DNA of 64,000 nt from Neisseria sp. GTDB taxonomy: Bacteria; Pseudomonadota; Gammaproteobacteria; Burkholderiales; Neisseriaceae. This document shows positions 10,870-27,625 of the stretch, piece by piece (the stretch's first letter is position 1; every line of letters starts with the position of its first letter). The notes below the pieces were generated by a model. It was not told where the DNA came from and did no database searches. It was given only the letters and a program-made list of their open reading frames with translations. Location: assembly GCF_030530745.1 (NCBI RefSeq), contig NZ_JAUMUI010000001.1, forward strand, positions 156,697 through 220,696, given 5' to 3'. Made by a program: the position numbers and the translations under genes.

Positions 10870-10950
10870 TTTTTATTCGTTCAATAAACCCTTAGATGAC
10901 TTTTTTAAATATTTAAAAAAACCATCTAAATTACAATCTATAGGCAAATT

Positions 10951-10992: not shown

Positions 10993-11277
10993 TTACTCAT
11001 CATCTAGGTCAAGTCTTTCTCTTTCTTCCCTTATTGCCTCCAAATCACCTTCACTAAGCTCTCATTCCAAATAGTAAAAAAATTGTATTTTTATTATCTA
11101 GTATTTCATTCATTTCATCTAAAATTATTTTCTACAAAATTATTCTCTTCTATCTCATCAACATTTTTTAATAATAACTCTTGCGGCAAACCACTTTTTA
11201 ACCCGAGAAAGTTATCATGAAAGGTATAAACCCGATCATCATGTCCAGTATCTACAAGAATATTCACAATATTTTCT
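10993..11277 (-). pseudogene. decayed gene remnant directly behind cas4
   Basis: On the minus strand, starting within a few bases of the cas4 stop, one frame reads VENIVNILVDTGHDDRVYTF and continues through LGLKSGLPQELLLKNVDEI to a stop near 11120. A second frame continues EMNEILDNKNTIFLLFG, and a third ends SEGDLEAIREERERLDLDDE at the stop 10993-10995. These three pieces read like one acidic C-terminal region broken by two frame changes. The 5' part is missing, apparently replaced by the cas4 end. Very AT-rich. Family not recognised. Confidence 0.4.
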
Positions 11278-11281
11278 ACTA

Positions 11282-11950
11282 TTACTCTCCAAACAACCCC
11301 TCCACATACCCCACCGACTTATCCTTCTCCAGCAACTTCGGTTGGCAAATTTCTATCAGCGAGCAGGCTTTGCAGTGTTTGCCGTATTCGGGCAGCGGGG
11401 TAGTGCCGCTGTCTAACAGTTCGCGTACTTGGCGGATCGCGTTCAGGGTTTCGGCTCTGAGGCCATCTGAAAATATTACCGGCACGCGGTGTCGGGTTTG
11501 CATATACCAGAGTGCGCCCTCGTCTATAGTTTGCCCCGTCATTTCTTCCAGACAAAGCGCTTGGGCGCAGAGCTGGATTTCGTCCATCGCGGTGGGTTTG
11601 GGCCTGCCGCGTTTGTATTCTACGGGTTTCAGGCTGCCTGTACGCAAATCCCGCTCCACCATATCGGCAATGCCCGTCAGCCCCAAGCGTTCGGCGGACA
11701 AATGCACGCTGCGTTCAAACCGCACGCCTTTGCGGGTTTCAGGCTCGCCGCCGTCCACTCGTTCGTGCAGCACCCGCCCCTGTGCGGTGAGAAAATTCTC
11801 CGCCCACGCCTGTTCGTTGTGAATCAACGCACACTGGCGCGGGCAAAAGGCGTAGTGTTGCAGGGCGGAGAGGGGAACGGTGGGTAGATCCCGTTCCCCT
11901 GTGCCTGCAAGCGGTGGTTTTTGCTCAGAATTTTGCAAATTTTCCGTCAT
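11282..11950 (-). CDS. cas4: CRISPR-associated exonuclease Cas4 (type I-C)
   Basis: Trims and orients prespacers so that PAM-adjacent spacers are integrated. The 222-residue protein has all four Fe-S cysteines (CPRQC at about residue 36, and CKACSLIEIC near 193) and the RecB-like nuclease core: ADMVERD, VEYKRGRPK and the QLCAQALCLEE motif. The start overlaps the cas7c stop by ATGA, so translation is probably coupled. The last residues GYVEGLFGE end directly against the low-GC insertion, yet length and cysteines look complete. Confidence 0.95.
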   Translation of the reverse strand: MTENLQNSEQKPPLAGTGERDLPTVPLSALQHYAFCPRQCALIHNEQAWAENFLTAQGRVLHERVDGGEPETRKGVRFERSVHLSAERLGLTGIADMVERDLRTGSLKPVEYKRGRPKPTAMDEIQLCAQALCLEEMTGQTIDEGALWYMQTRHRVPVIFSDGLRAETLNAIRQVRELLDSGTTPLPEYGKHCKACSLIEICQPKLLEKDKSVGYVEGLFGE

Positions 11951-12789
11951 CAGAAACCGTCTATTTCTTGAGGTGTTAATCCGTCGAGATTATCTAACCG
12001 ATAGCTGCCGTCGGCGTTTACTTTCAGGCTGCCGTGTACGTTGGCGGACGAATATTGCCCTGCTTTGCAATTGTGTTCCCACCAGATGAGTTTGAGTACC
12101 TGCATACTGCCTTCGGGGCGGGCGGAAGATGCGTCGCCTTCAAACAGTTTGGTGAGCACGGCTTTGATTTTGTCGGCATCGCCGTCTGAAAAGCCGGTGC
12201 GTTCGGCCAGCTGCGGCGACATGGCGCCGAAGGCGACGTAAATGCCGCTGTCCACGCGGTGTTTCATGCCCATGGTGTCGGAGCCGCGTTTGCTGCCGTC
12301 GCCTTCGCCGCTGACGCTTTTGGTAATTTGCGTACTGGTGATATTGACCGGCTCAACACTGAATGCGGATTGAATGGTTACGGGACCGCGTACGGCAATC
12401 GATACGCCTGCGCCGTCATCACTTTTGCCGAATGCGAATACCTGCCCGAAGCTGCGCACGTCCAGCCATTTTTCACAGGCTTTTTTAGCAGTTTCGTCTT
12501 TATCGGCTTTTTTACCGAATGCCTCTGCCCCCAAGCCGACTTCTTTGTCTTTGGCACGGTTGGCAAGGCTGGTCATGCCGTCGGTTTTCTTTTCGTCGGA
12601 TTGTACGAAGATGGCTTCGCCGCTGTCTTGCAGGCGGTCGCGGATTTTGCGTTTCAAACAAACATCGGTCATTTCGCCGATGCCTGAAAAATCGGCACGC
12701 GGGCGGTTGCCGTTTAAGGGGTCGCCGTTGGGATTGGCGTTTTTGACGCTGATAATCAGGGCAAAGTCGATTTTTTTGGTTAAGCTCAT
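11950..12789 (-). CDS. cas7: type I-C Cascade backbone subunit Cas7c (Csd2)
   Basis: Polymerises along the crRNA spacer to form the Cascade filament. The 279-residue protein begins with the typical Csd2 segment FALIISVKNANPNGDPLNG, followed by a thumb region rich in Lys/Asp and the conserved GMKHRVDSGIYVAFG and ending in a beta-strand pair SLKVNADGSYRLDNLDG. AAAGGA lies upstream of the ATG, 25 bases behind the cas8c stop. It overlaps cas4 by ATGA. Confidence 0.95.
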   Translation of the reverse strand: MSLTKKIDFALIISVKNANPNGDPLNGNRPRADFSGIGEMTDVCLKRKIRDRLQDSGEAIFVQSDEKKTDGMTSLANRAKDKEVGLGAEAFGKKADKDETAKKACEKWLDVRSFGQVFAFGKSDDGAGVSIAVRGPVTIQSAFSVEPVNITSTQITKSVSGEGDGSKRGSDTMGMKHRVDSGIYVAFGAMSPQLAERTGFSDGDADKIKAVLTKLFEGDASSARPEGSMQVLKLIWWEHNCKAGQYSSANVHGSLKVNADGSYRLDNLDGLTPQEIDGF

Positions 12790-12814: not shown

Positions 12815-14809
12815 TTATTCAGGGGTTTCGGTTTTCTTTTGTTTGGCGGCTTTGCGTGCGGCAATTTGGCGTGCCAGCTCCATTTTTTGGCAGTGGTAAC
12901 CGAGCAGGAATTCGCCGCTTAATTTGTCGTCGCAAACAAAGTCGTCGGTTTGGAACAGCTCCATAATCTCACCGATGGCCTGCGTGCCCGTATCTTTGCC
13001 GCGGCTGCGCAGTCGGTCTTGATAGGGTTTCAGTGCCAATTCGATATTGCGCCAAGTGGCAAAAGGGTGTTCGGCAAAGCGCTGCATATAGCGTTCGGCG
13101 GTGGTGGCGCGTTTTTCCTCCGCCAGATAAAGCGCATAGGATTCGATATTTTCGGCAATGGCCAGCAGCCTGCCGTACAAGTAGTCGCGTGAACGGTTTT
13201 CTGTATCTAAACTCATAGGGTAAGTTCTCCTTTCTGATAAATCATGATGACGGGCGCGCCAGCCTTTGTATAAAGCGCAAGCGACGCCGATGTTTCTTTG
13301 CCACTCCCAATTTTCGCTGCCGCTCGGATTGCAGGCCGTCTGAAAACTTTTTTGCACCAAATCATAAGGCATCGGCACGTTTTTACCGCCGGCAATCACG
13401 GGCAGCAGGCGGGCGTAGAGTTGTTTTTTCAGGGCATCGCTCAATGTCTGTCCGTAAACGGCGTAGCCGATGGCAGACGGCGACGGCGGCACAAACGCCC
13501 ACAGGGTTTGTTTATCTGTTTTTTTGCCGTTTTGCTTTTCAATGCTGTGGCGTTGGTACCAAGAAAAATCGTCTATCCAAGCGTCCAGGTTGGCGAAATA
13601 GTCGGCAGGCAGAAATTCTTGGTAGTAAGTCAGCGCCATACGTCCCGGTGTGGCGGAGTCCAGCATGAGCAGGGAAATCTGTTCATGTTCTTTCAGCGCT
13701 TTTTTATAGCCGTGCAGTTTCTTTTTAATGATGGCGGCGGCCTGCCGCCCGATATTGACAGACCAATCGATACCGCTGTTTTCGTTTTCAGACAGACTGT
13801 TGATTTCGTCATTATTTTCAACCGCACTTGTATCCAGATTATCCCAGTCGATTTCGTCAAAAGTATCTTTTATCGGCGAAGGAATTTCTTTGCCGCTGAT
13901 TGCCCAAGCAACGGTTACCTGATCGCCGTTGCGGATACCTTGGCGGGCGATCAGCCAACGTAATGCACTGTGTGCTTTGGCGGATACTTCCGCCGAGACA
14001 CTGGCCGCCTCTTCAGCCGCTTCAAAACGCCCACGGAAGGTGTAGCCCGCCGTATCGTTGGACGAAATCAATTTGGCTTTATCGCCCGTATGACGCAATT
14101 TGGCAGGGTGCATGGTGGAAACCGACGTATCGATACCCTGTATCAAACAAAAACCCTGTTGTGCCGCACTGCTGCCGATGTAGTCTATCCACGACTGCTG
14201 CACGCTTTGATCCGTCCATGTTTCGCTATGCACATCGCCGGCAATTTCCACACACCAGCACACCAATGCCGAACCGAACTCGATTTCGCCCTTGGTTTTC
14301 GGCAATACGGAAAAAATCGGCGGGGCTTCGCCCTCCGCTTCCCATTTGCTTAAAACTTTGCCGTTTGCGTCCGACTGAAAAACGCCTGCCCGAACCAAAT
14401 CGGCGACAACCGTGCCTTTGCCGACATAATCCAGCACGGCTTGCACTTTCGGGTGTTTGAATGTCGAGTCGCACCATTGCTGCAACTGCTTGCGATAACC
14501 TTCAAAATAGGCTTTTTTGCCGCCGCCGTAATCGGCGTAATCTTTGGCAACATATTGGATTTTGTCTGCCAGTGGGTGCGGTGCTTCACCGCTGGTACGG
14601 TTTTCCGATGATTCGGTAGCCGGCAGCATAATTGCCGTTTTTGGCGGCATTACCCGTGCCGTTTGAAATTCTCCTTGTCCGTTTAATACGATAACAATAT
14701 GGGCATTTTGCAGGGTATGCCCGACGGGTGTCAGCGGTTCGTCATCGCTGTCAAACGTTTGCCCCGATACGGCTTCATACGTCCGATACAGTTTCTGCAT
14801 CCAGCTCAT
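12815..14809 (-). CDS. cas8c: type I-C Cascade large subunit Cas8c (Csd1)
   Basis: The large subunit recognises the PAM and opens the target duplex. The 664-residue length is slightly above the usual ~600. The N-terminus MSWMQKLYRTYEAVSG and the HTLQNAHIVIVLNGQGEF segment are characteristic of Csd1, as is the C-terminal half with LDTENRSRDYLYGRLLAIAE. In type I-C an internal start inside this gene usually yields the small subunit Cas11c; I cannot pick that start with confidence. It overlaps the cas5c stop by ATGA. One uptake sequence lies inside the gene (about 13338). Confidence 0.93.
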   Translation of the reverse strand: MSWMQKLYRTYEAVSGQTFDSDDEPLTPVGHTLQNAHIVIVLNGQGEFQTARVMPPKTAIMLPATESSENRTSGEAPHPLADKIQYVAKDYADYGGGKKAYFEGYRKQLQQWCDSTFKHPKVQAVLDYVGKGTVVADLVRAGVFQSDANGKVLSKWEAEGEAPPIFSVLPKTKGEIEFGSALVCWCVEIAGDVHSETWTDQSVQQSWIDYIGSSAAQQGFCLIQGIDTSVSTMHPAKLRHTGDKAKLISSNDTAGYTFRGRFEAAEEAASVSAEVSAKAHSALRWLIARQGIRNGDQVTVAWAISGKEIPSPIKDTFDEIDWDNLDTSAVENNDEINSLSENENSGIDWSVNIGRQAAAIIKKKLHGYKKALKEHEQISLLMLDSATPGRMALTYYQEFLPADYFANLDAWIDDFSWYQRHSIEKQNGKKTDKQTLWAFVPPSPSAIGYAVYGQTLSDALKKQLYARLLPVIAGGKNVPMPYDLVQKSFQTACNPSGSENWEWQRNIGVACALYKGWRARHHDLSERRTYPMSLDTENRSRDYLYGRLLAIAENIESYALYLAEEKRATTAERYMQRFAEHPFATWRNIELALKPYQDRLRSRGKDTGTQAIGEIMELFQTDDFVCDDKLSGEFLLGYHCQKMELARQIAARKAAKQKKTETPE

Positions 14810-15528
14810 AGTCCCAACTCCTCAGCCTCATCTTCCACAGGCTTGACGTTTTCGCCGCGTTTAAACGGTTTTTCAGGCTGCATTTCTCGGATAAAGCGGG
14901 TTTTCAGACGGCCTGTTTCATCGTTTACGCTTGGGAACTCAATCACGCCGTGTTCCATTTTCGCCGCCCAAAAACGGCTGACCAGCTCGGGTTTGCCCGT
15001 TTCTTCGGGATAGCCGAAGCTGTGAAACATCAAGCCGAAATCAAGGTTGTCGATCTCATCGTAAAAGCCTTTGCCCGAGCCGAATTCGCACGGTTCCACA
15101 TAGCCTTGGCAATCACGCGTGCCCAAGAAAATATCCTGCCTGCCGCCGCGTTCCAGCATTCTTTCGGCAATCGCCATATGTTTGCCGAAATTGCGGTCGC
15201 CTTTGAGTTCTTCCCAATTTTCGTTCCAAGTGAAGTGCGCCTGCACTTGGTATTCCACATCTTGCAGAAAAGTGTAAATCGCCAGCGTATTGCCGCCGTT
15301 CCAGTCCAAGGGTTTGGTGGATTTGCTTTGGGTGCGGATCGGCTTCATTATGCGGATTTTGTCGATGTGCCAAATCAGGGTCGGCTTCCAGTAAATGCTT
15401 TTGACAATGCCTTTAACCGCTTCATAGGTCGGTACCTGGTAGCTGAATTTTTCGCCGCCGATTTTGGTAACGGGGTCGGTAAACAAAGCCTGCCGTCCCC
15501 AAACGCGGAAAGTAATGGTGCTGTTCAT
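14806..15528 (-). CDS. cas5c: type I-C crRNA-processing subunit Cas5c (Cas5d)
   Basis: In type I-C systems Cas5 replaces Cas6: it cuts pre-crRNA at the repeat hairpin and stays bound to the 5' handle. The 240-residue protein begins MNSTITFRVWGRQALFTDP, with the RAMP fold and the active-region segment SYQVPTYEAVKGIVKSIYWK. A longer in-frame start at 15594 would run into cas3; ATG at 15528 has AGGAG seven bases upstream and gives the family N-terminus. It begins 10 bases behind the cas3 stop. Confidence 0.94.
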   Translation of the reverse strand: MNSTITFRVWGRQALFTDPVTKIGGEKFSYQVPTYEAVKGIVKSIYWKPTLIWHIDKIRIMKPIRTQSKSTKPLDWNGGNTLAIYTFLQDVEYQVQAHFTWNENWEELKGDRNFGKHMAIAERMLERGGRQDIFLGTRDCQGYVEPCEFGSGKGFYDEIDNLDFGLMFHSFGYPEETGKPELVSRFWAAKMEHGVIEFPSVNDETGRLKTRFIREMQPEKPFKRGENVKPVEDEAEELGL

Positions 15529-15538
15529 ATCGCTCCTT

Positions 15539-17971
15539 CTATAATTCGTAAAACGGCATTTCGCCGGTTTCATCGACGGATAAGCCGTATTCATCGCTGT
15601 AATGCCCGTCTTTCAAATAATAAATGCCTGAGCCTGCTTGTACTTCATAGATAGCCTGTTCCTGCTCCAATTTCTGCCACACATTCGGAAACACGTTCAC
15701 ACTGTAGCGCTGCGCTTTGGCCAGCGTGCGGTACATTACTTTCGGTTTCCATTCGCCGCAAAGCAAAGCAATCAAATCCCTACCTTCGCCATATGGCACA
15801 ATGACGGCGCGGGTCGGCGCATCAATGGCTTGAAAAGCCTGCCCCGCGCTTTTGAATGACTGCATCAGAAGCGGAAACAGCTTGGTTCTTTGATTGTTTT
15901 TCGCTGCATAAACATTTGAAGCATTATCGGAAAGCCAGTCCAATAGGCTACCTGAAATGCTGTTTTTAACCGCATAGCCCATCTCGCCGCTGCGGTTGTA
16001 AAAATAGTATTGGAAATACCGCTGCATGGCGGCAGGCTGCAAAATATCCTGTCCGGCAAATTCGCGCAATACGCGTTCGGCATTTTTCTGCCCTTGGTCA
16101 ATATCGGGCAGCACCCGTGCCAAATCCGGCTCTTGCAGGTTGAGCACATACACCTGCCCTTTGCCGTTTTTTTCGCCATGACGATTACAACGCCCCGCTG
16201 CTTGGGCAATGGAATCCAGCCCGCCCAAAGCACGGATGACGCAAGCCATAGAAATATCCACGCCCGCTTCAATCAATTGGGTGCTGATACAGATCACGGG
16301 TTGTTTGTTTTTCAGACGGCCTTTGATTGCATCAAAAATGGTTTTGCGGTGTGCGGAACATTGGTTGGTGCTGAGGTGAAACAGTGCTTCTTTCGGCACG
16401 TTCTGCGTTTGACAGTATTGATAAAGTTCTTGCGCCCATTTTTTGGTATTGACGATAAACAGGCAGCTTGATGCCGTCTGAAACTGCTCCAATAAAAATC
16501 CGCCCGCTTCATTCACTGACCAGCCGCCCGCTTTGGGTTGATACTGGATTTCCACACGCGATAAATCGTCGAACAATTTGTTTTGCTCGTCGTTTTTACC
16601 CATCATTTCGGCGTTTTGCGCCAGTTTCAATTCGCCGAATTCCGATTTGGGCAATTTATCAAGCAGCGGCTGGGTGGCCGTGCACAATACCGCACTGGAT
16701 TTGCCGAACTGCGTGAGCCAGTTCAGCACATTGCAAAACAGGTGCACGCATTTCACCGGCAGAGTTTGGATTTCGTCGAAAATCAGCACGCTGCGTGTCA
16801 TCGGGTGGATATGCCGCACGCCGCGTGTGCCGCCGCCGAACCAAGCATCGAGAAACTGCACCATGGTGGTAAACACAATCGGCTTATCCCAATTTTCGGC
16901 AAGCAGTTTGTCCTGCCAGTTTTGCTTTTCAGGATCAAGGTTGGAATGGTGTTCCAGCACCCAATCTTCGCCGAGAATTTCACGCACGGTGCCTGCATTT
17001 TGGTCAATGATGGACGTGTAGGGAATGATGTAGATAATGCGGTCGAGATTGTGCTTTTGTGCGTGGTGCAAAGCATAACGCAGGCTCGCCAGCGTTTTGC
17101 CGCCACCGGTCGGTACGGTCAACGTGTAGATGCCTTGCGGGTCGGTAGCACGTTTCAGACAGGCATCGGATATCTCGCGGCGGATTTGGTCAATCGGGTA
17201 ACGGATTTCAAAATCGGCCAGATGAGTTTCCAGCTTATCAATGGCTTCCTGCCAGTTGGGCTTTTGAGTCAAACGGCGCAAATCCTTTTGCGCTTCGCGT
17301 TCAAAATCCGCACTGTTGATACGGTCGGCATCAATCAGGCAGCTGAATAGAAAACGGGTGAGGCAGCCGAGATGAAATTCTTTGATTTTTTCGTTGCTGT
17401 CCGGTTGCTTCAAAATGGCTGCAAGCGGCTTTAACAGCAATTTAACCAAATCTTCATTAGCCAAACCTTCCGCCTGCCGCTTGACCGCTTCATCAGCATT
17501 TTGCTCGCACTCTGCCAAATGCGTCAGCGCATCGTCTTTTGAAAAGCGTATCCGCCAAACCGCATCGCCTTCAGGACTCAGGCAGTCAATCAATCCCGCG
17601 CCGTGGTGCGAAGCAATGCACAAGCCCAATATTTGTCCAACCAATTCGCCGATGCCGTTTTGCGCGCCAAACTTTTTCAGACGGCCATACACCCATTGTG
17701 CGCCCGCCGTGGAGTGGTCGATTTTCTTGCCGTTCGGCAGCGTATCTTCCACATCGACATCGGGATTCACGCCCGCTGCCGCCTTGATATAGCTTTGAAA
17801 CGCTTGCGAATATTTACCGAAATCGTGCATTAACCCCAGTAACTCACCCGCTTCGGGCAAATCCAGCTTCGCCGCCAATTCGCGGGCAATGGCGGCGGTT
17901 TCGGTTAAATGAGTGGCAACAGATTGTTCCGATTTATCCGCTTGGCGGATATGGGCGATAAAATTTGTCAT
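15539..17971 (-). CDS. cas3: CRISPR-associated helicase-nuclease Cas3 (type I-C)
   Basis: Recruited by Cascade to nick and then processively degrade target DNA. The 810-residue protein has the N-terminal HD nuclease domain (LMHDFGKYSQAF with the HD pair at 49-50, later SHHGAGLID) and the superfamily 2 helicase core: Walker A PTGGGKT, the DEAH-type box FDEIQTLP, SAVLCTATQPLL and motif VI AQAAGRCNRHG. It is the first gene of the cas block. ATG at 17971 has a GGA-rich stretch upstream. Its 5' leader contains the hairpin of the degenerate repeat at 17986-18017. Confidence 0.96.
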   Translation of the reverse strand: MTNFIAHIRQADKSEQSVATHLTETAAIARELAAKLDLPEAGELLGLMHDFGKYSQAFQSYIKAAAGVNPDVDVEDTLPNGKKIDHSTAGAQWVYGRLKKFGAQNGIGELVGQILGLCIASHHGAGLIDCLSPEGDAVWRIRFSKDDALTHLAECEQNADEAVKRQAEGLANEDLVKLLLKPLAAILKQPDSNEKIKEFHLGCLTRFLFSCLIDADRINSADFEREAQKDLRRLTQKPNWQEAIDKLETHLADFEIRYPIDQIRREISDACLKRATDPQGIYTLTVPTGGGKTLASLRYALHHAQKHNLDRIIYIIPYTSIIDQNAGTVREILGEDWVLEHHSNLDPEKQNWQDKLLAENWDKPIVFTTMVQFLDAWFGGGTRGVRHIHPMTRSVLIFDEIQTLPVKCVHLFCNVLNWLTQFGKSSAVLCTATQPLLDKLPKSEFGELKLAQNAEMMGKNDEQNKLFDDLSRVEIQYQPKAGGWSVNEAGGFLLEQFQTASSCLFIVNTKKWAQELYQYCQTQNVPKEALFHLSTNQCSAHRKTIFDAIKGRLKNKQPVICISTQLIEAGVDISMACVIRALGGLDSIAQAAGRCNRHGEKNGKGQVYVLNLQEPDLARVLPDIDQGQKNAERVLREFAGQDILQPAAMQRYFQYYFYNRSGEMGYAVKNSISGSLLDWLSDNASNVYAAKNNQRTKLFPLLMQSFKSAGQAFQAIDAPTRAVIVPYGEGRDLIALLCGEWKPKVMYRTLAKAQRYSVNVFPNVWQKLEQEQAIYEVQAGSGIYYLKDGHYSDEYGLSVDETGEMPFYEL

Positions 17972-17985
17972 GCTTATCCATCCGT

Positions 17986-18080
17986 TCCATTACACACAGC
18001 CGCCCGAAGGCGGCTGATTTTCAAACGATGATCACTCACCAATCTTAGTTTCAACACACGCACGCCAGCAGGCGCACGAC
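17986..18080 (-). CRISPR. two-repeat CRISPR-like unit in the cas3 upstream region
   Basis: In the 124 bases between res and cas3 lie two degenerate repeats around a 30-base spacer. The upstream repeat (minus strand, 18080 to 18048) keeps the whole 3' part GTGTGTTGAAAC. Its stem arms differ from the array but still pair over 8 positions as CGTGCGCC/GGCGTGCG, two of them G-U, so the fold holds only in minus-strand RNA. The downstream repeat (18017 to 17986) keeps CAGCCGCC/GGCGGCTG with a TTCG loop but has lost its handle. The spacer (18018-18047) is shorter than any in the array. The layout would yield one crRNA-like guide transcribed towards cas3. The first seven spacer bases (TAAGATT) recur at 18114-18120, preceded by TTT. 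A cas-regulating or cas-guarding RNA is the likeliest reading, but a dying relic array is possible. Confidence 0.65.
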
Positions 18081-18094
18081 ACAACAACCGTTTT

Positions 18095-20785
18095 TCAGAC
18101 GGCCTTTTTCTCAAATCTTAAAAAATCCTCCAGTCTTTTTGCTTCATCTACTTCATCGTGGGCAATCAACAGGTATTTCCACGCCTTGCCGCCGTGCTGC
18201 GTGGCATAGTCCGCTGCCTGTTTGCACCAAGCCGCTGCCGCTTCGGTTTTGGCCAGCACTTCAGGGCTTTGCATATCAGCACGGGATTTGGTTTCTGCCA
18301 TCAGGATAAAATCATCGCCCTCTACTACGAAATCGGGAATATATTCTTTCTGATCGGCACCTTGTTTGTAATAAATCTGAAATTGCCCCTTGGCCGGTTT
18401 GAACCATTTTTGCGCATCGCGCTCCAGAATCACGGCGAAGCGGCGCTCGGTGTCGGAATCGAATTTTTGCAGCGGATACAGGCACTTTTTAAACCCGCCG
18501 AACAGCATTTGCTTGATGCGCGAAACATCTTGCACCGTTTCGCGCACCGAATGCACCGGCTCGTTTGCCGAAGCGGTGTAATGGCAGGGTTTGAGCGCGG
18601 TAAAACCACGGCTGACATGCGCTTCATAATGCGTGGCTTTTTCCCAGAAATGCGCCGTCATTTGCGCATGAATTTCCCGTGCAATCAGGCGGCGGTTTTT
18701 ATCCAACACATCCAGCGCTTCGGCCTCGGAAAGATAACTGCGCAAATGCCGCACCATCTGCCCGGCCAGGTCATACAAAAGATTAGCTTGGGTGAAGTAG
18801 TCAATATCGTCAAAATCGATCAGCGCGTGCACGATATAGTCTTCAGGGCGTTTCTCAACCAGCCCCAACTCGGCAGACAGGCTACTTTGCTCATCGGTAT
18901 GCAGGTTGTGAATCAGGATTTCGCGCGCACCCGGCTGCAAATGCAGATTGCCGACATCCAGGGTAAAGGGGTGGAACCTCGTGCTGACTTCCCCGCTCGG
19001 CATCATGGTGATACGCGGAATATCGATGGTTTGCGCCACCAGAACTTGCGTGGTTTTCGCCACAATTTCCGCCACATCGGGCAACGCATCTGCCAATAAT
19101 TCGCCCTGCGCACCCTGCAATTGCTGTTTCACTTCTTCTGTGATTTTTGCCTGAATATCCGCTTGCAATAAGGCTTGCGAAGTCGGCGCTTGTTGAGGGC
19201 GGGTTTCGTATCGGGCCGCCGCTTCCATAACCTTGCGGGCAATTTGTTTTTCCGCCTCACTGGTAAATATCGGCTGATCCGCTTCTGCCGGATACGCGCC
19301 AACCGTTTCAGACGGCCTATCCAACCCCAAACGGCTTTCTATACCGCTCGGAACGGTAACGCTCACTTTTTGCTCGTCTTCCCCGGCAGGATCCAAAATC
19401 ACCTGCTGCAAGCGCAATACCGAACCGCCTTTGTTGGCTTCGTCAATAATTTCCTGAAAGCGGTCGTGCGCCACAATATTGAGTCTGTCCACCACTTCCA
19501 CGCCGGTGCGCTTGCCATAAGGCAGGCGCAAGCCACGACCGATGCTTTGCTCAATCAAAGTGCGCGCATTGGCGGCGCGCAGCGGCACAATGGTATAAAG
19601 ATTGGTTACATCCCAGCCTTCTTTAAGCATATTTACGTGAATCACGATTTCGGTCGGCTCGTCCACGCTTTCCACCGCCAAGAGCCGCGCAATCATCTCT
19701 TCCTCGTCTTTGCCCGACTTGCTGGAATCCACCTGAATCACCTTGCCCGCATAACGCCCGCCGTAAAAGGCATCGGATTCCAACAATGAAAGCAGCCCTG
19801 CCGCATGCGTGGTATCGCGGGCAATCACCAGCATAAAGGGTTTGACTGCCGGCACGCCGTTTTCCCGCGCAAAGGTTTGCAGCTCCACCTTGGTGTTTTC
19901 ATGCAGGCGCACACCGTCTTCCAGCTTGATTTTTTCAATCTCTTCCGGCGTATGGTTTTGGGCGTTGAAATTACGCTGCGTTACCACCGCGGGCATTTTC
20001 ACAAAACCGTCTTCCATCGCCCGCGCCAAGGGGTAATCCATCACCACGTTTTTAAACGGAATCGGCGCTTTGGCGGATTCCACAAACGGCGTGGCGGTCA
20101 GCTCCAAACCCAACAGCGGATTCAATTCGTTAATCGCCCGCATCCCCGCCTGCGCGCGATAACGGTGCGATTCGTCCATCAGCAGCACCAAATCGGGCAA
20201 GTTAGCCAGATAATTGAAATAACTGTCGCCCAACACCTCGCGCATCCGCTTGATACGCGGCTCCTTGCCGCCACGCACTTCGGAATTGATTTTGGAGATA
20301 TTGAAGATATTGATGCGCACCTCGGTAAAGAAATCCGCCATGCCGATATTCTGCTGCTCGTAATTGTCGCCCGTAATCACGCGCGGCGGGTTCACGGCAA
20401 ATTCGCCGATGCCCTTGAATACATATTTCGGCGTATTGGGCGAAAAATCGGCAATCAGCTTGTTGTAAATGGTCAGGTTCGGTGCCAGCACAAAAAAGTT
20501 GTTAATACCGTGCGCCAAATGCAGATAGGCGACAAATGCCCCCATCAGACGCGTTTTACCCACCCCCGTTGCCAAGGCAAAGCACAGCGACGGAAAATCA
20601 CGTTCAAATTCCTGCAAGGTGGAAAATTCGGCCTTCAGCGTTTCCAGCACCGCCGCCACATCACGCTGATGTTTCAGCATTTCAGGGGCGGCATCCAAGG
20701 CTTGTTTCAACTTCGCCAGACTTTCCGCCTGCGGTGTGCGCAAAGACAAGCGTCCGTTGATATGGTTTTGAATTCTTGTGGTCAT
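18095..20785 (-). CDS. res: type III restriction enzyme, Res subunit
   Basis: ATP-dependent helicase-like endonuclease subunit that cuts DNA together with Mod. The 896-residue protein has Walker A ATGVGKT (about 75), the DEAH-like box LLMDESHRYRAQ, the LTATP motif, the C-terminal helicase motif EQSIGRGLRLPYGKRTG, and a C-terminal PD-(D/E)xK-type nuclease core (IPDFVVEGDDFILMAETK near residue 830). Length is within the family's usual range. The start ATG overlaps the rhuM stop as TAATG. No frameshift is seen, so the enzyme looks active. Confidence 0.93.
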   Translation of the reverse strand: MTTRIQNHINGRLSLRTPQAESLAKLKQALDAAPEMLKHQRDVAAVLETLKAEFSTLQEFERDFPSLCFALATGVGKTRLMGAFVAYLHLAHGINNFFVLAPNLTIYNKLIADFSPNTPKYVFKGIGEFAVNPPRVITGDNYEQQNIGMADFFTEVRINIFNISKINSEVRGGKEPRIKRMREVLGDSYFNYLANLPDLVLLMDESHRYRAQAGMRAINELNPLLGLELTATPFVESAKAPIPFKNVVMDYPLARAMEDGFVKMPAVVTQRNFNAQNHTPEEIEKIKLEDGVRLHENTKVELQTFARENGVPAVKPFMLVIARDTTHAAGLLSLLESDAFYGGRYAGKVIQVDSSKSGKDEEEMIARLLAVESVDEPTEIVIHVNMLKEGWDVTNLYTIVPLRAANARTLIEQSIGRGLRLPYGKRTGVEVVDRLNIVAHDRFQEIIDEANKGGSVLRLQQVILDPAGEDEQKVSVTVPSGIESRLGLDRPSETVGAYPAEADQPIFTSEAEKQIARKVMEAAARYETRPQQAPTSQALLQADIQAKITEEVKQQLQGAQGELLADALPDVAEIVAKTTQVLVAQTIDIPRITMMPSGEVSTRFHPFTLDVGNLHLQPGAREILIHNLHTDEQSSLSAELGLVEKRPEDYIVHALIDFDDIDYFTQANLLYDLAGQMVRHLRSYLSEAEALDVLDKNRRLIAREIHAQMTAHFWEKATHYEAHVSRGFTALKPCHYTASANEPVHSVRETVQDVSRIKQMLFGGFKKCLYPLQKFDSDTERRFAVILERDAQKWFKPAKGQFQIYYKQGADQKEYIPDFVVEGDDFILMAETKSRADMQSPEVLAKTEAAAAWCKQAADYATQHGGKAWKYLLIAHDEVDEAKRLEDFLRFEKKAV

Positions 20786-21816
20786 TATTTGTCTTCCTTA
20801 TCCGTTTGTTTTAACAAGCGGTCAAAATCGCTTTCAAACAAGCGGTCTTGCACAATGCGGTATTTTTCAAATTCGCTTTCCGCATGTGCCTTGGCGATTT
20901 CTGCCGTTACTTTTCCCGCATCCTGCAACACTTCGCGGTCGGCGGCTTCAATAAAGCGGTTCAAACGCACCTCCCAATCCTGCATGGTCATCGGAATGTG
21001 GCGCATCGCCATATCTTCGGCAATATCCAAATAGGCGTTGACCAAGCGCGAAAGCTGCGCCATTTCGTATTCGTTCAAATAATTTTTGGCAACAGAGACA
21101 TCAAATTTCTGAATCTTGCCGTGTGGCGCGTCTTTCCAGGACTGCAAGCCCATATGCGGCTTTTCGGCATCGGCCCGGTGATAAATAACCTCTGCCGCCG
21201 TCTGCCCGTGAATTGCCCAATGCAGCTTGTTTTGCACCGTGGCAAAAAACCGCTTGGTGGCTTGTGCCGTAACGTCATAATCCACCGCCGTAGCATAAAT
21301 ATCGGTGATTTTCTGATAAAACTTGCGTTCGGACAGGCGGATTTCCCGTACCCGCTGCAACTGCTCTTCAAAATATTCTCGGGTAAATACCGAACCGCCG
21401 TTTTTCAAACGTTCGTCATCCATCACATAAGCTTTGATGGTAAAACTTTCCACAATTTCGGTTGCCCATTTGCGAAACTGCACCGCCCGTTCGGAATTAA
21501 CCTTATAGCCCACGGCAATAATGGCAGACAAATTATAGTGTTTGGTATGGTAGTTTTTGCCGTCGGCGGCAGTTATCCGAAAATTTCGGATAACTGAATC
21601 TGCCTGTAGCTCACTGTCGGAAAAAATTTTTCCCAAATGATAGTTCACTGTGCGGACATCCACATCATAAAGCGCCGCCATCATTTTCTGCGTCAGCCAA
21701 ACATTCTCATCGGCATACACCGCCTGCACACCGCCTTCCTTATTGGCCGCCACAAAGGTCAGATACTCCGCCGCCGATGAGCGGGTAATGGAAACCGCAT
21801 TCTGTTTTTTCACCAT
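20785..21816 (-). CDS. rhuM: RhuM family protein
   Basis: A 343-residue protein of the RhuM family, found widely inside type I and III restriction loci and first named on a Salmonella pathogenicity island. The signature is the N-terminal DNA-binding-like segment VWLTQKMMAALYDVDVRTVNY followed by FRITAADGKNYHTKHYNLSA and KVNSERAVQFRKWATE. The C-terminal half has the Fic-adjacent-type helices LHWAIHGQTAAEVIYHRADA. The biochemical role is unknown. It starts two bases behind the DUF1016 gene and overlaps res, so it is an integral operon member. Confidence 0.85.
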   Translation of the reverse strand: MVKKQNAVSITRSSAAEYLTFVAANKEGGVQAVYADENVWLTQKMMAALYDVDVRTVNYHLGKIFSDSELQADSVIRNFRITAADGKNYHTKHYNLSAIIAVGYKVNSERAVQFRKWATEIVESFTIKAYVMDDERLKNGGSVFTREYFEEQLQRVREIRLSERKFYQKITDIYATAVDYDVTAQATKRFFATVQNKLHWAIHGQTAAEVIYHRADAEKPHMGLQSWKDAPHGKIQKFDVSVAKNYLNEYEMAQLSRLVNAYLDIAEDMAMRHIPMTMQDWEVRLNRFIEAADREVLQDAGKVTAEIAKAHAESEFEKYRIVQDRLFESDFDRLLKQTDKEDK

Positions 21817-21817
21817 A

Positions 21818-22852
21818 TCAAAGATCCTCCTGCCAATCCGACAATTCGCTTTCCAACTCCTCCACCGTCGGCAGATTACTGACCAAGGATTCAGGCAGGG
21901 CGCGTACCAGTTCGTATTCGGCGATGCCTATCGGCTTATCGATACCGGACAAAGCATATTCGGCCACCAAGCGGTTTTGCGTTTTGCACAACAATAAACC
22001 AATGGTGGGGTGATCATCAGGAGCTTTCACTTGCGCATCGACCGCCGCCAAATAAAAATTCAACTGCCCTGCATGCTCCGGCTTAAATGCCGTGGCTTTT
22101 AATTCCACCACCACATAGCATTTCAAACGCGTATGGTAGAACAGCAAATCGATGAAAAACTCATCGCCGTTCACTTCCAAACGGTATTGCCGCCCCACAA
22201 AAGCAAAACCACTGCCCAATTCCAACAGAAAATGGGTAATATGCCGCACCAATGCCTCTTCAATATCGCGCTCATGCGCTTCCTCCCCCAAACCCAAAAA
22301 ATCAAACAAATAAGGGTCTTTCAGGGTCTCTTGTGCCAAAGCAGACGTAGGCGCAGGCAAGCGGGCGGTAAAATTGGTAACCGCCTGCCCTTGGCGTTCA
22401 TGCAAGCGGTTTTTGATATGGATTTCCAAAGTGGCACGCGACCAAGCCTGTGCTATAGCCTGCTGTAAATACCACTCTCTTTGCTGTGGTATTTTCACCT
22501 TATCAATCAAAGTACAAAGATGAAACCACGGTAATTGTGCAGCAGCCTGCTGCACAATTTCAAAATCCGGCCAAGCCTCAGCAAACGCACGCATATATTT
22601 CAGATTGCGGGTAGAAAACCCCTTCATCTCCGGAAACGCTTCCCGCAGATCGCGCCCTAGGCGGTCAATCACTTTACTGCCCCAGCCTTGTGCCGCCTGC
22701 CGCTCTAAAATATCCCGCCCGATATGCCAATACAGGGAGACCAGCTCGGCATTTGCCGCCAAAGCCGCTTTTTGCCGCGCCGCCAGCACCCGCCCTTTGA
22801 TTTCGGTAAGCCAATCGCCGTAATCGGCGGGTAACAAATGGTTTTTATTCAT
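21818..22852 (-). CDS. yhcG: DUF1016 (YhcG-type) PD-(D/E)xK nuclease-domain protein
   Basis: A 344-residue protein with the two DUF1016 domains: an N-terminal helical DNA-binding part (AELVSLYWHIGRDILERQ, then GFSTRNLKYMRAFAEAWP) and a C-terminal PD-(D/E)xK fold (FFIDLLFYHTRLKCYVVVELK, with the D and ExK of the catalytic core). Such proteins are embedded in many restriction-modification loci, where their exact contribution is unknown. ATG at 22852 is chosen over a start at 22981 inside mod: it overlaps the mod stop by 8 bases and follows GGAGGCAA. Confidence 0.87.
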   Translation of the reverse strand: MNKNHLLPADYGDWLTEIKGRVLAARQKAALAANAELVSLYWHIGRDILERQAAQGWGSKVIDRLGRDLREAFPEMKGFSTRNLKYMRAFAEAWPDFEIVQQAAAQLPWFHLCTLIDKVKIPQQREWYLQQAIAQAWSRATLEIHIKNRLHERQGQAVTNFTARLPAPTSALAQETLKDPYLFDFLGLGEEAHERDIEEALVRHITHFLLELGSGFAFVGRQYRLEVNGDEFFIDLLFYHTRLKCYVVVELKATAFKPEHAGQLNFYLAAVDAQVKAPDDHPTIGLLLCKTQNRLVAEYALSGIDKPIGIAEYELVRALPESLVSNLPTVEELESELSDWQEDL

Positions 22853-24629
22853 TTGCCTCCCCCGCAAACAAATCCTCCTGATTGTCCGCCGCACTTTTGC
22901 CTTTTGCAGCTTTATTGCGGTTTTCAGGCAGCCTTTCAGACGGCATCGGTTCAGGCTCCGCCATCGGCAGATTGGCGACATTCAAACTGTAATCGTCATG
23001 CCCCCATTCGCAGCGCGCCAGCACCATTTTCGGGATTTTTTTCAAAGAAAGATTCGGGAAACGCTCCGCCGCCTGCGCCGCCGTAATGCCGCGCCAAGCG
23101 GCGCAGCACACCAAGAGGCTTTGGTTTTCGCCCACCTCGTCCGACAGCGCCTGCAACTGTTCGGCAGACAACGTTTGTGTGGTTACATAAATAAAATCGC
23201 GCTCGCTGGAAAAACCGTGCTGCCACCACAAGGTTTCAGACGGCCTGTAAGTAAAGCCCTCCAGCTTGGCCAGCGCTTCCGCCAGCATTTCGGGGTTATA
23301 GTCGGGATTGATGACCGGATTGCCCCACGCATCGTTCACAATCAGGGTCGGCGCCAAGCGGTAATAACGGAAGCCGCCGCCGCCCTGCCAGTTCACCGCC
23401 TTGGAAATCCCGCCCTGATCGGTGCCGTCAATCACCTTTTGCAAACGCGGAATAATATGCGTATGGCAATGCTCGCCCAACTCCACCATAATCCAGCGCC
23501 GCCCCATTTTATGGGCGACTGCGCCGGTGGTGCCGGAACCGGCGAAAGAGTCTAGGACTAGGTCTCCGGGGTTGGTGGCTAGCTCCAAACATCGCTTAAT
23601 TAAACGTTCTGGTTTTTTCCCTTTACGGAAAGTAACTCCTCCTTCATTTGCAATTCCTTCCCATGCGATATCCTTCCAAACATTTGTTAGTAAGGCAGTT
23701 GCTGATAATTTTCCATCAATTTCAGCAACATTTTTCTTGTAAAAAATTAATTGTTGACCATCAATAATATATACATCATCTAAACCACTAGATCGTTCTA
23801 GCTTAAAAACTCTACCAGGCGCCTTCAAAGATTCTTTTTTCAATTGGACAATTTTTTCTCCCGCTCCTAAATCACTAATTGAAGCCAAACGACATACCTG
23901 TCTTGCATTATTTACAATGAAATCATTAAAATGTTCTAAAAGGGAGTCAGGTCTACGAGATCGTGAAGGAGGAGACTTCTCATACGCATCCATTAGTGGA
24001 ACAAGCCTCCATTGAGAAAAATCCTCATCTGGATTATCTAGCCATTTGTTATATGCATAATCTGGTGAACGAGAAACACGGCCAGAATTCTCTATAAATT
24101 CGCTTTTATCTTTGGCATACCATAAAATATACTCTGATGATTTAAATACTCCAGGATTTACTGTACTAAACGCGGAAGGGGAACGTGCTTCAACAGTAAT
24201 TCTATTTACAAAATTACTTCGACCAAACACTTCATCTAGCAAAACTTTACAATAGTCTAGCTCGTCATCATTCAAATGAACAAAAATAGAACCTCTTTTA
24301 TTTAACAAAGAACTTAACAACTTAAATCGTTCATACATCAATCCAAGCCAAATGGAATGTTCTAAACCATCATCATAATTCTCAAAGGCTTCACCTGTAT
24401 TAAACGGTGGATCAATATAAATACAAGATACTTCACCAGTAAACTCCTGCTCCAACGCCTTGAGTGCCAGCAGATTATCGCCAAAAATCAACCGATTATC
24501 AAAAATCGCCTGCTCGGAACGCGTTGCCGCATGATACGATTTCTCCGCATCCTCCAGCAAAATCCGCGCCTCCAACTTAGGGCGCTTGTCTTTGCCTATC
24601 CAAGTGAGTTCTAGTTTTTGTTTGATCAT
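22845..24629 (-). CDS. mod: type III restriction-modification DNA methyltransferase, Mod subunit
   Basis: Adenine methyltransferase and specificity subunit. In the 594-residue protein the catalytic motif IV DPPF (IDPPFNTGEAF, about residue 73) comes before the SAM-binding motif I DSFAGSGTTGA (about 378), the order of the beta class to which type III Mod proteins belong. The specificity region lies between them. The 3' third (22845 to about 23560) is GC-rich like the neighbours, whereas about 23570-24450 is strikingly AT-rich, so the central and N-terminal part was probably exchanged. No simple-sequence tract of the kind that makes modA or modB phase-variable is present. It starts 12 bases behind kwaB. 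Confidence 0.93.
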   Translation of the reverse strand: MIKQKLELTWIGKDKRPKLEARILLEDAEKSYHAATRSEQAIFDNRLIFGDNLLALKALEQEFTGEVSCIYIDPPFNTGEAFENYDDGLEHSIWLGLMYERFKLLSSLLNKRGSIFVHLNDDELDYCKVLLDEVFGRSNFVNRITVEARSPSAFSTVNPGVFKSSEYILWYAKDKSEFIENSGRVSRSPDYAYNKWLDNPDEDFSQWRLVPLMDAYEKSPPSRSRRPDSLLEHFNDFIVNNARQVCRLASISDLGAGEKIVQLKKESLKAPGRVFKLERSSGLDDVYIIDGQQLIFYKKNVAEIDGKLSATALLTNVWKDIAWEGIANEGGVTFRKGKKPERLIKRCLELATNPGDLVLDSFAGSGTTGAVAHKMGRRWIMVELGEHCHTHIIPRLQKVIDGTDQGGISKAVNWQGGGGFRYYRLAPTLIVNDAWGNPVINPDYNPEMLAEALAKLEGFTYRPSETLWWQHGFSSERDFIYVTTQTLSAEQLQALSDEVGENQSLLVCCAAWRGITAAQAAERFPNLSLKKIPKMVLARCEWGHDDYSLNVANLPMAEPEPMPSERLPENRNKAAKGKSAADNQEDLFAGEANE

Positions 24630-24641
24630 AACTTTAACACC

Positions 24642-25586
24642 TTATTTATTAACCTTGGATTTTGCAGCAGCATCAAATATTTCGTCATTGATGGGTGAGC
24701 GCAAACGATCGTTATTAAGTAGTTTTAACAATAAATCTATTGTTTCTTCTTCAACTACAATCTGTCCATTCTCCACCTTCAAATCCCATTTTTCTTTTTT
24801 ATTGACAGCAATTAATTTTTTAAGATAATCAGGTTGTTTATAATAACCAGATTTTAATATAGAAGCCATTTTTCGTAAGTGATGTAGATTATTGCCAACA
24901 TACTGCTCAATCAATTCTATATTTTTAAAAGTTTCAAGATTTTTAAAATCAGCAATCACTTCAGCAGATTTCCTCTTTATCCCTTCGCGAAAATTCATTG
25001 AACTCTCAAACTGTTTTTTGCTCGCTATAAATACTGTTCCTTTATAAACAAAAAAATCATAATTTGGATAAATAACAAAAACCTCTTTATCATCAGGATC
25101 AACCAATTCTTTATTTATAAAAAACAGAACCCCTTTTGAAGCCACCTTTTTAGGCTGCGTGTCCGTATTGATTTTTTTCCAGGCATACAATTTTTTATCA
25201 TCTTTTTCAAACAAAATAACATAAGCCCATGAATTAAGCAGATCTTTATGATTATCTACTCTTAGATTATCAAAGCCTTTATTTATTTCCGTTTCAACTT
25301 TTTCAAAATCCGTGATACCAGAATCAATTGTTAGCAATACATCATCACAGTCTGCATTGCTATAATCATATTTCTCAATATGAAACTTTTTCCCTTGAAG
25401 TTGATTTTTCAGGTAGCCTTTAAAGCGAGTAGGCAATTTTTTATCCATATCGACACGCCAAGCATGATACGAAGCTTCTTTGATAGTTGTTGGAGCCTTT
25501 CTTTTTATCAGCCAGAATGATACAGACCAATCGTTAAAACTTTCTGCTTGTATTTCTTTAATTTGCTTTTTGGTGTTTGTAATCAT
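24642..25586 (-). CDS. kwaB: Kiwa-like anti-phage protein KwaB (DUF4868)
   Basis: A 314-residue soluble, low-GC gene product. The central part matches the DUF4868/KwaB pattern as I know it: WAYVILFEKDDKKLYAWKKI, then EVFVIYPNYDFFVYKGTVFI and the helix NLETFKNIELIEQYVGNNL, ending in a Lys-rich helical region. In Kiwa, KwaB is a DNA-binding effector working with the membrane protein KwaA. The partner gene directly upstream encodes a four-span membrane protein and overlaps by ATGA, which strengthens the call. The identification rests on pattern recognition, not on a profile search. Confidence 0.7.
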   Translation of the reverse strand: MITNTKKQIKEIQAESFNDWSVSFWLIKRKAPTTIKEASYHAWRVDMDKKLPTRFKGYLKNQLQGKKFHIEKYDYSNADCDDVLLTIDSGITDFEKVETEINKGFDNLRVDNHKDLLNSWAYVILFEKDDKKLYAWKKINTDTQPKKVASKGVLFFINKELVDPDDKEVFVIYPNYDFFVYKGTVFIASKKQFESSMNFREGIKRKSAEVIADFKNLETFKNIELIEQYVGNNLHHLRKMASILKSGYYKQPDYLKKLIAVNKKEKWDLKVENGQIVVEEETIDLLLKLLNNDRLRSPINDEIFDAAAKSKVNK

Positions 25587-26164
25587 GATTTTTCCTTATT
25601 ACTCTTATAGTCAGAGTTTGAACGAATATATAAATAATGAGAAAGCCTATCCAAACAAACTGTATCACCAGAGCTAATGGGCTGCTTAGTAATAACCATT
25701 GCTTGCACCTCCTTTTCCCCTCGCTTAAACGTACAATCAATCAACATATATCCAAAAATGGCTAAGATAGGATTGATAAATACTGTTTGTGTCCGATAAG
25801 CCATAGTGAACAATACAATCAGAAATAATAGAATCGCCAATATTGTTTGCCAATCAGTTAAGTCAATCCGCATAAAAGACATCATATAAGGAATTGTATA
25901 TCCAAACATATCTCCTGACTTATTCGATGCCTTACTCACAACAACCATTAATCCACTTCGGACACTTTTAACCACTCGTAACACAATGACGCTGCTAATT
26001 ATTGCTGCAACTAATAAGCCAATTCCGATTTCTGGAGAATTAAAATAGTTTGGACTTGTCAAATCTATTTGTTTAATTGCCATAATCACCATTAATGGAG
26101 AATATGCACTAATAAAAAGAATTAACGAGACCCATGGTCTTAATCTTAAGGATGAATCAGCCAT
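25583..26164 (-). CDS. kwaA: Kiwa-like membrane protein KwaA
   Basis: A 193-residue inner-membrane protein with four predicted spans: about 8-28 (VSLILFISAYSPLMVIMAI), 42-62 (IGIGLLVAAIISSVIVLRVV), 104-124 (ILAILLFLIVLFTMAYRT) and 128-145 (INPILAIFGYMLIDCTF), followed by a cytoplasmic tail. Size and topology fit KwaA, the membrane sensor of Kiwa. ATG at 26164 has GAGGA eight bases upstream and is preferred to the start at 26197, which lies in the helicase remnant. The stop overlaps kwaB by ATGA. AT-rich like kwaB. Confidence 0.65.
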   Translation of the reverse strand: MADSSLRLRPWVSLILFISAYSPLMVIMAIKQIDLTSPNYFNSPEIGIGLLVAAIISSVIVLRVVKSVRSGLMVVVSKASNKSGDMFGYTIPYMMSFMRIDLTDWQTILAILLFLIVLFTMAYRTQTVFINPILAIFGYMLIDCTFKRGEKEVQAMVITKQPISSGDTVCLDRLSHYLYIRSNSDYKSNKEKS

Positions 26165-26177
26165 ATACTTATCCTCA

Positions 26178-26852
26178 TCACACCATCTCCCACTCAATAA
26201 AAAACAATTCTTTCTCTTCCACCTGCTGTTTCAACTGCTCTTCCAGCTCTTCAATCAATCGGTTGCGTTGGTTTTCAATTTCATCCTGTTTGTCAAACAG
26301 CTCCCGCCGCTGTTTGCTGCGTTTGTTTTCCAGTTCGCGCTGTTTTTTCTGCCAAGCCAGCTTTTCTTCCAGCGTGGCGGCGGTGGCAGCGGTGCGGCGG
26401 GCTTCTTTGATTTCGCGGTCGGTTTCTTTGATGTCTTGCTCCAAGCCGTGTTTGAGGTCGTCCATCCAGTCGTCTAGCTTTTGCACTTCTTGCTCAAAGT
26501 AGCCGAAATTGCGGTGGGTGGCGTCGTTTTGCAGTTGTTATTGGCGGCAGTCGATATCGACAACCAAGACTATCTGAATACTTGTTTGTGCGCTTGCGCT
26601 CCGCCCAGCACTGCAAAATCACCAAGCCGGCCTCAATGGTTTTGCCCAAGCCGACTTCATCCGCCAAAATCACGCCGTTCGATAAAGGATTCTGGCAGGC
26701 AAACAAGGCGGCATCGACTTGATGCGGATTCAGATCCACTTGCGAATCAACCAGCGTGCCCGCCAGCTAATCCATGCTGCCGCTTTGTGCCTGACGGGTG
26801 AGCAGCCAGGCATAGTATTGGGTTTGGTGGGGAGTGAGGTGCAAGTGCTTCA
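26178..26852 (-). pseudogene. remnant of a Snf2-type helicase gene
   Basis: Starting at ATG 26852 the protein reads MKHLHLTPHQTQYYAWLLT, meets an in-frame TAG at 26766-26768, and continues with the helicase N-terminus NPHQVDAALFACQNPLSNGV and Walker A ADEVGLGKTIEAGLVI. Just after CWAERKR homology ends. The next recognisable part, in another frame, is the coiled-coil C-terminus (KLDDWMDDLKHGLEQDI to EEKELFFIEWEMV, stop at 26178). Nearly the whole helicase core is therefore deleted, in addition to a nonsense change. Intact relatives are large Snf2/RapA-like proteins in defence islands. The remnant lies 13 bases upstream of kwaA and may once have led the same operon. Confidence 0.75.
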
Positions 26853-27020
26853 TTCTGTTATACTATTTTTCTTATTTGAGAAGTGATCATGATAAGCATT
26901 GCCACAACTGAAGTCAAATTTTATTTCTAAGAATGGTGATAGAGATACTGAAGCTATATCACCAACTCCTCCGCCCTCAAAAACGCTATATCCCCCCAAG
27001 AGAACCCCGCCACTTCATCA
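26853..27020 (-). other. short gene fragment cut by the insertion sequence
   Basis: Next to the left end of the insertion sequence the minus strand reads DEVAGFSWGDIAFLRAEELV and then a stop. Joining across the element at the duplicated TA extends this by only a few codons (RDISTY) before a stop, so the fragment was already incomplete or begins nearby. Nothing else is seen here. Confidence 0.3.
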
Positions 27021-27025
27021 TATAG

Positions 27026-27625
27026 TCAATTAAAATAAGAACTCCGTAGTAATGCAGTCATAAAATCTCCCACGGCAGGTAAAACTTTCCGCAAATGCTT
27101 TTTAATATCCGCCCATACCTTTTCAATCGGATTAAGCTCGGGTGAATAAGGTGCAAGGGGCAATACTTTATGTCCCTGCTTCTGCGCCATTTCAGCCAAA
27201 ACCACCATACGGTGGAAGCGGGCATTGTCCATAATGATGACGGATTTCTCCGTCAGTTCGGGCAGCAGCATCTGCTCAAACCATGCTTCGAACAGGCTGC
27301 CGTCCATGGTGCCGCAATAGGTCATGGGTGCAATCAGGCTGCCTTTACCTTGGATTTGTGCTGCAGCCAATGAAATACGTCGGTATTTCCTGCCGCTGAT
27401 TTGTGCTTTGACGGGTACGCCTTTTTCCGAGTAGGCGTAAGGGCGGTAAAAAAAGGTGTCGAACCCTGTTTCATCAAGAAAAACTGCTTGATAGTCAGTA
27501 TATTGGCCCAATGCTTGTTGATAAGCAGCTACTTGTTCGGGCTTTTGTTCTTTGTATGTGGCGGTCTTTTTTTTCGTGTGATGCCCATGACTTTGAGCAG
27601 GTAGCTGACATTTGGGGTGCTGCAC
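27026..27625 (-). CDS. IS630-family transposase, OrfB (catalytic part)
   Basis: The DDE catalytic domain: first Asp in VFLDETGFD, second in VIIMDNARFH and the Glu in PELNPIEKVWADIKKHL, all in the right order and spacing for IS630. The apparent N-terminus upstream of KKKTATYKEQKPEQ is an artefact of reading the OrfA region in this frame. The real product is probably the OrfA-OrfB fusion made by frameshifting. The stop lies five bases from the end of the element. Nothing suggests inactivation. Confidence 0.85.
   Translation of the reverse strand: MQHPKCQLPAQSHGHHTKKKTATYKEQKPEQVAAYQQALGQYTDYQAVFLDETGFDTFFYRPYAYSEKGVPVKAQISGRKYRRISLAAAQIQGKGSLIAPMTYCGTMDGSLFEAWFEQMLLPELTEKSVIIMDNARFHRMVVLAEMAQKQGHKVLPLAPYSPELNPIEKVWADIKKHLRKVLPAVGDFMTALLRSSYFN

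Follow-up and report, generated by a model that had tools for sequence, protein, structure and literature searches.

A probable CreR/CreA-type guide unit in a Neisseria type I-C cas locus and its predicted repression of a linked defence cassette

The stretch of DNA analysed here (64,000 nucleotides of a Neisseria sp. contig, hereafter the window) carries a CRISPR-Cas locus together with a cassette of other defence genes, and the array and genes listed below all lie on the minus strand. The CRISPR array lies at about 6060 to 8420, where the repeat GCAGCCGCCTTCAGGCGGCTGTGTGTTGAAAC is present in 33 exact copies. By using profile models, cas2 (8611-8904), cas1 (8944-10050), cas4 (11282-11950), cas7 (11950-12789), cas8c (12815-14809), cas5c (14806-15594) and cas3 (15539-17971) were identified; cas1, cas5, cas7 and cas8c fit type I-C models, and cas2, cas3 and cas4 fit general ones. 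Sequence comparison further revealed a type III restriction subunit (Res, 18095-20785), a RhuM family protein (20785-21816), a YhcG-type nuclease (21818-22981), a DNA methylase (Mod, 22845-24629), KwaB (24642-25586) and KwaA (25583-26197). The first gene behind the promoter predicted for this region is an SNF2/DrmD-like helicase relic (26181-26853), recognised as two tblastn pieces of an intact gene in the related genome G050; its frame is broken and a large internal part is gone. From this relic onward, KwaA, KwaB, Mod, YhcG, RhuM, Res, the unit described below, cas3, cas5, cas8c, cas7 and cas4 form one co-directional run, followed after 1.2 kb by cas1 and cas2. The 1.2-kb gap between cas4 and cas1 (10050-11282) is without a clear gene on the cas strand and contains a 133-codon open reading frame on the plus strand.

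The gap between res and cas3 comprises 123 bases (17972-18094), one fewer than the 124 of the initial annotation, which had also claimed a repeat-spacer-repeat unit at this place. Direct reading of the minus strand from 18079 to 17984 confirmed the unit, which consists of a first repeat (R1, 18048-18079), a 31-nt guide or spacer (TAAGATTGGTGAGTG..., 18017-18047) and a second repeat (R2, 17984-18016), in this order. R1 is degenerate, and its arms CGTGCGCC/GGCGTGCG form an 8-pair stem including two G-U pairs, with a TGCT loop, followed by the intact 11-nt handle TGTGTTGAAAC, the same sequence as at the 3' end of the array repeat. In R2 the array stem is preserved (a perfect 8-pair stem with a TTCG loop), the 3' end and handle are decayed, and 12 nt separate the repeat from the cas3 start codon (17971). 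Each repeat folded singly into the described hairpin in the fold computation, so that sequence and fold agree with what had been said of both stems, namely that the R1 arms have diverged and still pair and that the R2 stem is perfect. In comparison with the array stem, three R1 pairs are altered on both sides with pairing kept, a point judged by eye; the MAFFT alignment of the units misplaced the R1 stems. On shuffling of the R1 stem region, an equivalent stem was reached in 2% of trials. Moreover, a stem of 5-9 pairs adjoins the handle in 14 of 15 aligned units (p 0.002-0.05 each in shuffles), and the remaining one (G079) has no significant stem beside the handle (p 0.63). When the guide was compared with a phage collection, no good match was found (two records with coverage of no more than 31%, E 0.9). 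Thus, with both repeats degenerate and no good phage match, the unit is unlike an ordinary CRISPR array.

With regard to the target of the guide, the initial annotation had pointed to a site beside the unit, where TAAGATT recurs at 18120-18114 behind TTT. The recurrence is real, scores 8/10 in the seed (over 18120-18109, 10 of the first 12 bases agree, with a TTT PAM), and is also kept in the closest relative, G037. As a guide target directly upstream of the unit, this site is hardly credible: the window contains three sites of at least 8/10 versus a mean of 2.24 for shuffled seeds, the site sits in the coding end of res, no promoter-like pairs were found in 17950-18400, and in G050, G036, G034 and G038 the end of res shows no match to the guide of the respective genome (by eye). 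The most likely target is a PAM-flanked site in the promoter region 8.9 kb upstream of the unit, ahead of the defence cassette. At this site, a TTC PAM (26925-26927, plus strand) precedes a target (26928-26959, plus strand) in which 11 of the first 12 bases equal the guide, with a difference at position 6, which type I complexes are not known to read. The seed (positions 1-5 and 7-11) is therefore matched 10/10, and the site is the only one of its kind in the window; the TTC/TTT-flanked sites of at least 8/10 are 26928 (10/10), 63523 (9/10) and 18120 (8/10), and only 10 of 2000 shuffled seeds have any 10/10 site in the window. Across the 2.28-Mb genome, TTY-TAAGANTGGTG occurs without mismatch once, at 26928, and with one mismatch at five sites (three for a reversed-pattern control). 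Beyond position 12 the pairing is poor, which suggests that the target would be bound rather than destroyed.

A promoter is predicted on the minus strand 7 nt downstream of the PAM (TTGACT-17-TATCAT, 26917-26889, 10/12), a closeness that is partly built in, as the scan was limited to -35 distances of 0-13 nt. Promoter-like sites in this kilobase show no real excess (2 versus a mean of 1.0 in shuffles), and 9 of the 16 promoters scanned across genomes reach 9 of 12. Judging from the co-directional genes, this promoter may drive the cas genes in the window. Strong read-through into cas is uncertain, because the promoter is a predicted one, its first gene is a relic, and it lies 8.9 kb away.

Similar units were searched for in 84 genomes of the family and beyond, and 19 genomes with units could be listed, 18 of them from the family of the window's genome and one from Necropsobacter massiliensis, a member of the Pasteurellaceae. 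Among 45 cas3 rows listed (five genomes twice, and L039 partial), three, from two genomes (that of the window and G037), have the unit upstream of cas3. A second I-C lineage of the genus, whose cas3 is 36-40% identical to that of the window, has the unit directly upstream of cas5 in 13 of 18 cas5 loci listed, one of which is in another genus (G079); in the same set, L132, L135, L141 and L145 have no unit upstream of cas5, and L144 (G015) has an inverted one. In G045 and G021, with a cas3 sharing about 75% identity with that of the window, the unit occupies the gap between cas4 and cas1, where none was seen by eye in the window. No unit was recognised in the searched stretches of G014, G046, G043, G024, G035, G022, G067, G026, G010, G011, G048, G031 and G040, in which the hits included array ends.

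The guides were then compared with the promoter regions of their own loci. In 14 genomes the region compared was the 200 bp ahead of the first cassette gene, except in G079, where 300 bp ahead of the unit were taken; G027, in which the start string was not found, was scored separately. The best TTC/TTT-flanked match was at least 8/10 in 12 of the 14 guides and always lay on the opposite strand. For the 11 of these with a start codon, the distance from the site down to the first start codon is 63-77 nt. Seed scores were 10 for the window, G050, G038, G016, G054, G051, G020 and G079, 9 for G034 and G049, 8 for G036 and G033, and 6 for G037 and G052. The ten guides scoring 9 or 10 gave shuffle p values of at most 0.007, and those of the others were 0.06 (G036), 0.09 (G033), 0.55 (G037) and 0.79 (G052). 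The G052 guide agrees with its target in 12 of 12 bases, which follow TTA rather than TTC/TTT. In addition, the G027 guide scored 9/10, and the guides of G045, G021, G015 and N. massiliensis scored 10/10. Hence, in 15 of the 19 units the guide has a 9-10/10 seed match behind TTC or TTT in the promoter region of its locus, the exceptions being G036 and G033 (8/10), G052 (full seed but TTA) and G037 (no match). When guides and promoters of different classes were combined, scores lay mostly in the range 5-8 and reached 9 where G054-type guides were paired with the G016 promoter or G050-type guides with that of G037. Because the genomes are related, and because the targets were already known when the promoter windows, the start codons and the G079 stretch were set, the pooled significance is overstated.

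A search blind to promoters was also carried out, in which 56 isolated handles in 70 loci (some duplicates) were examined for a 10/10 target within 2.5 kb. Such a target was found for eight handles from seven genomes, and for none in 40 rounds with shuffled seeds. This stricter shuffled-seed scan replaced a first, loose scan of isolated handles (1240 handles, 17 hits), which was dropped because shifted controls gave 48-120 hits and several of its own hits proved to be array or uptake-sequence repeats; the Necropsobacter unit first surfaced in it. A pattern search of viral contigs gave 43 matches, for which chance was judged likely given the short pattern.

N. massiliensis carries a unit of the G015 type. 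In both genomes (L192 10475-10634 in G015, L043 12720-12910 in N. massiliensis) a divergent unit stands on the strand opposite to cas5. Both guides match the cas5 promoter over its -10 region (by eye). Two seed bases differ between the two guides, and the targets differ identically.

Over the unit, the window and G037 show 4 differences in 121 positions (P 0.0015 at 11.3% surrounding divergence). This closeness was not counted as support, because the guide and promoter of G037 do not match and the tract may be recombinant. The guide of G037 is near-identical to that of the window, and its best promoter match is 6/10. The region concerned (contig C59, about 18300-18600; L178 1285-1599) combines a window-type guide with a promoter that fits a G050-type guide (9/10), as if the unit had been exchanged.

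These comparisons bear on the view that the unit is a functionless relic of an array end. The degeneration of both repeats and the mismatch in G037 would suit such a relic, but decay has spared the stem pairing and handle of R1 as well as the stem of R2, the guide finds no good match among the phages searched, and guides and targets differ in step between species. Since units recur in related I-C loci, where the initial annotation had named a lack of conservation as the outcome that would speak against its proposed guide, and since 15 of 19 guides fit their own promoter region, the relic view appears very unlikely. Another possibility is that Cas5c cuts the unit in the 5' leader of the cas3 mRNA and thereby limits Cas3 whatever the guide sequence. 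As R2 adjoins the cas3 start and no promoter-like pair occurs in 17950-18400, the cas3 mRNA probably carries the unit, which favours this idea; it leaves the guide-promoter matches unexplained, and is considered unlikely as the sole role of the unit, although leader cleavage may act in addition.

The DNA between the target promoter and the guide may be regarded as a slot whose content varies. In the window it holds Kiwa and type III restriction-modification (R-M) genes; a SNF2/DrmD-like helicase with R-M genes is found in G050 (profile) and in G036, G034 and G038 (by eye), with target and unit of G038 on separate contigs. Gabija occupies the slot of G027, SIR2-HerA that of G033, a PDC-M48B protein that of G052, and DUF2188 that of G054 (Pfam) and of G049, G051 and G020 (by eye). 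G016, G021 and G045 have a small membrane-type ORF (pairwise E 5e-15 to 7e-4), and the G079 slot contains no ORF of 55 codons or more. Complete defence systems are thus present at positions where Cascade carrying the guide would silence them. Examination of the cas5 loci of the second Neisseria I-C lineage (L128-L143) suggests that the stretch between cas3 and cas5 is a hotspot of swappable defence genes (Gabija, SIR2-HerA, R-M and others).

The history of the locus in the window may be related to this second lineage. Directly beyond the target, positions 26960-27025 (minus strand) encode what resembles the last 22 codons of the second-lineage cas3 (68% of 22 aa, E 0.002), adjoining an insertion sequence with a DDE transposase gene (window 26960-27625). 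Because the end of a second-lineage cas3 and an insertion sequence adjoin the promoter, the promoter, helicase relic, res and unit look like parts of a second-lineage locus, with first-lineage cas genes swapped in behind the unit.

Taken as a whole, sequence comparison upholds one part of the earlier proposal, a CRISPR-derived guide in the region that controls a type I-C locus: the unit is probably of the CreR/CreA type and directs type I-C Cascade to repress the operon to which the unit belongs, together with the defence genes in it. The unit would be transcribed from the minus strand, probably inside the operon under its control, and Cas5c would cut both stems, releasing a guide that resembles a crRNA and has a normal handle. 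Once loaded with it, type I-C Cascade would bind at 26928 beside the TTC PAM, upstream of the -35 element of the operon promoter, and block RNA polymerase; no destruction by Cas3 would be expected, since pairing is good only in the seed. Transcription of Kiwa, Mod, YhcG, RhuM and Res would be damped, and that of the unit and the cas genes as well via read-through. Such a feedback loop would open when Cascade is scarce, filled by crRNAs from the array, or blocked by anti-CRISPRs. In Neisseria, promoters at sites with TTC or TTT PAMs are repressed by I-C Cascade that lacks Cas3 (PMC10865793).

RNA-guided self-repression by CreR/CreA-type units is known, and a type I-C form that holds whole defence systems looks new. 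The primary CreR study (Cell Host Microbe 2023) reportedly dealt with types I-B, I-E and V-A. Shmakov et al. (NAR 2023) are said to have described mini-arrays that partially match the promoters of cas or cargo genes in many type I loci; to our knowledge, co-variation with multi-gene defence cassettes was not part of that work. Among the titles and abstract openings that literature searches listed, from a collection lacking most subscription papers, none described such units in Neisseria I-C or whole defence systems under CreR control. CreR is a crRNA-like RNA whose partial match directs Cas proteins to repress the cas promoter (PMC12737573). The present unit resembles it in being a repeat-guide-repeat element beside cas genes, with a handle identical to that of the array and a partial, seed-based match next to a PAM in the region of a predicted promoter that may drive cas, and differs in its type (I-C), in targets that are not always the cas promoter alone, and in a guide-target distance of up to about 11 kb, which results from the other defence genes between promoter and cas. 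CreA (PMC9458426) has two ectopic repeats, the first diverged with the Cas5-binding handle kept and the second without a handle; here too, R1 has diverged with its handle kept and R2 has lost its handle. Unlike in CreA, R1 and R2 both keep hairpins, which would fit processing by Cas5c, and whereas the CreT toxins of that source are small RNAs, the cassette genes here encode proteins. For CrePA, PMC12737573 describes a guide that represses a protein gene freed by anti-CRISPRs, and known CreP is one toxin of the KilA-N type; in the place of CreP, whole systems (Kiwa, R-M, Gabija, SIR2-HerA) would stand here, and their repression is predicted. Racr (RNA anti-CRISPR), for which a type I-C case exists, consists of solitary repeats in viral genomes that engage Cas proteins (PMC10651486). 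The present unit likewise has ectopic repeats that would engage Cas proteins, and differs in having two repeats and a guide in a chromosomal cas locus.

The benefit of such repression could be thrift, as for CreR, or guarding and a second line of defence, as for CreA, and both may hold. In a guarding role of the kind known from CreTA and CrePA, harmful cassette genes would be silenced, and loss or inhibition of Cascade would lead to dormancy or abortive infection. This is possible and somewhat doubtful. It would agree with Gabija and SIR2-HerA in the slot and with G045 and G021, where the unit is remote from the effector genes and a 54-aa ORF with a hydrophobic stretch stands alone between target and unit (a related 59-aa ORF is found in G016). 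On the other hand, the unit lies directly ahead of cas3 or cas5 in the window and most relatives, fitting cas control, the small ORFs are without known toxicity, and the first cassette gene of the window is a relic. The ORFs of 54-59 aa with one hydrophobic stretch (L183 15678-15842 in G045, L185 15701-15865 in G021 and L175 10345-10524 in G016) are candidates for CRISPR-repressed small proteins.

Combining the CreR/CreA-type reading with the slot leads to a broader proposal, put forward tentatively with the chances slightly against it. In Neisseria I-C loci, Cascade and a resident guide would serve as a switch for a swappable defence slot that lies behind the cas promoter and ahead of the effector genes. 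The contents of the slot (Kiwa with type III R-M, Gabija, SIR2-HerA or a small membrane peptide) would be repressed as long as CRISPR works and freed by anti-CRISPRs as a second line. Guide and promoter would have co-evolved, and the guide of the window would have outlived the replacement of its cas lineage. Should the cassette truly be controlled in this way, adaptive and innate immunity would form one circuit, in which a block of CRISPR turns on restriction, Kiwa or Gabija. RNA-guided self-repression would be extended to type I-C by guide seeds and targets in promoters that differ in step between species and in two bacterial families. The search for an isolated handle with a nearby PAM-flanked seed match, which recovered seven genomes, may be applicable to other subtypes.

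Besides the array and the unit, a solitary near-complete CRISPR repeat with a TTCG loop on the minus strand was observed at 928-959 of the window, far from the array and beside another hairpin; no second repeat was seen there. The gene ahead of it is presumably that of a glucose-6-phosphate isomerase, which its end resembles.
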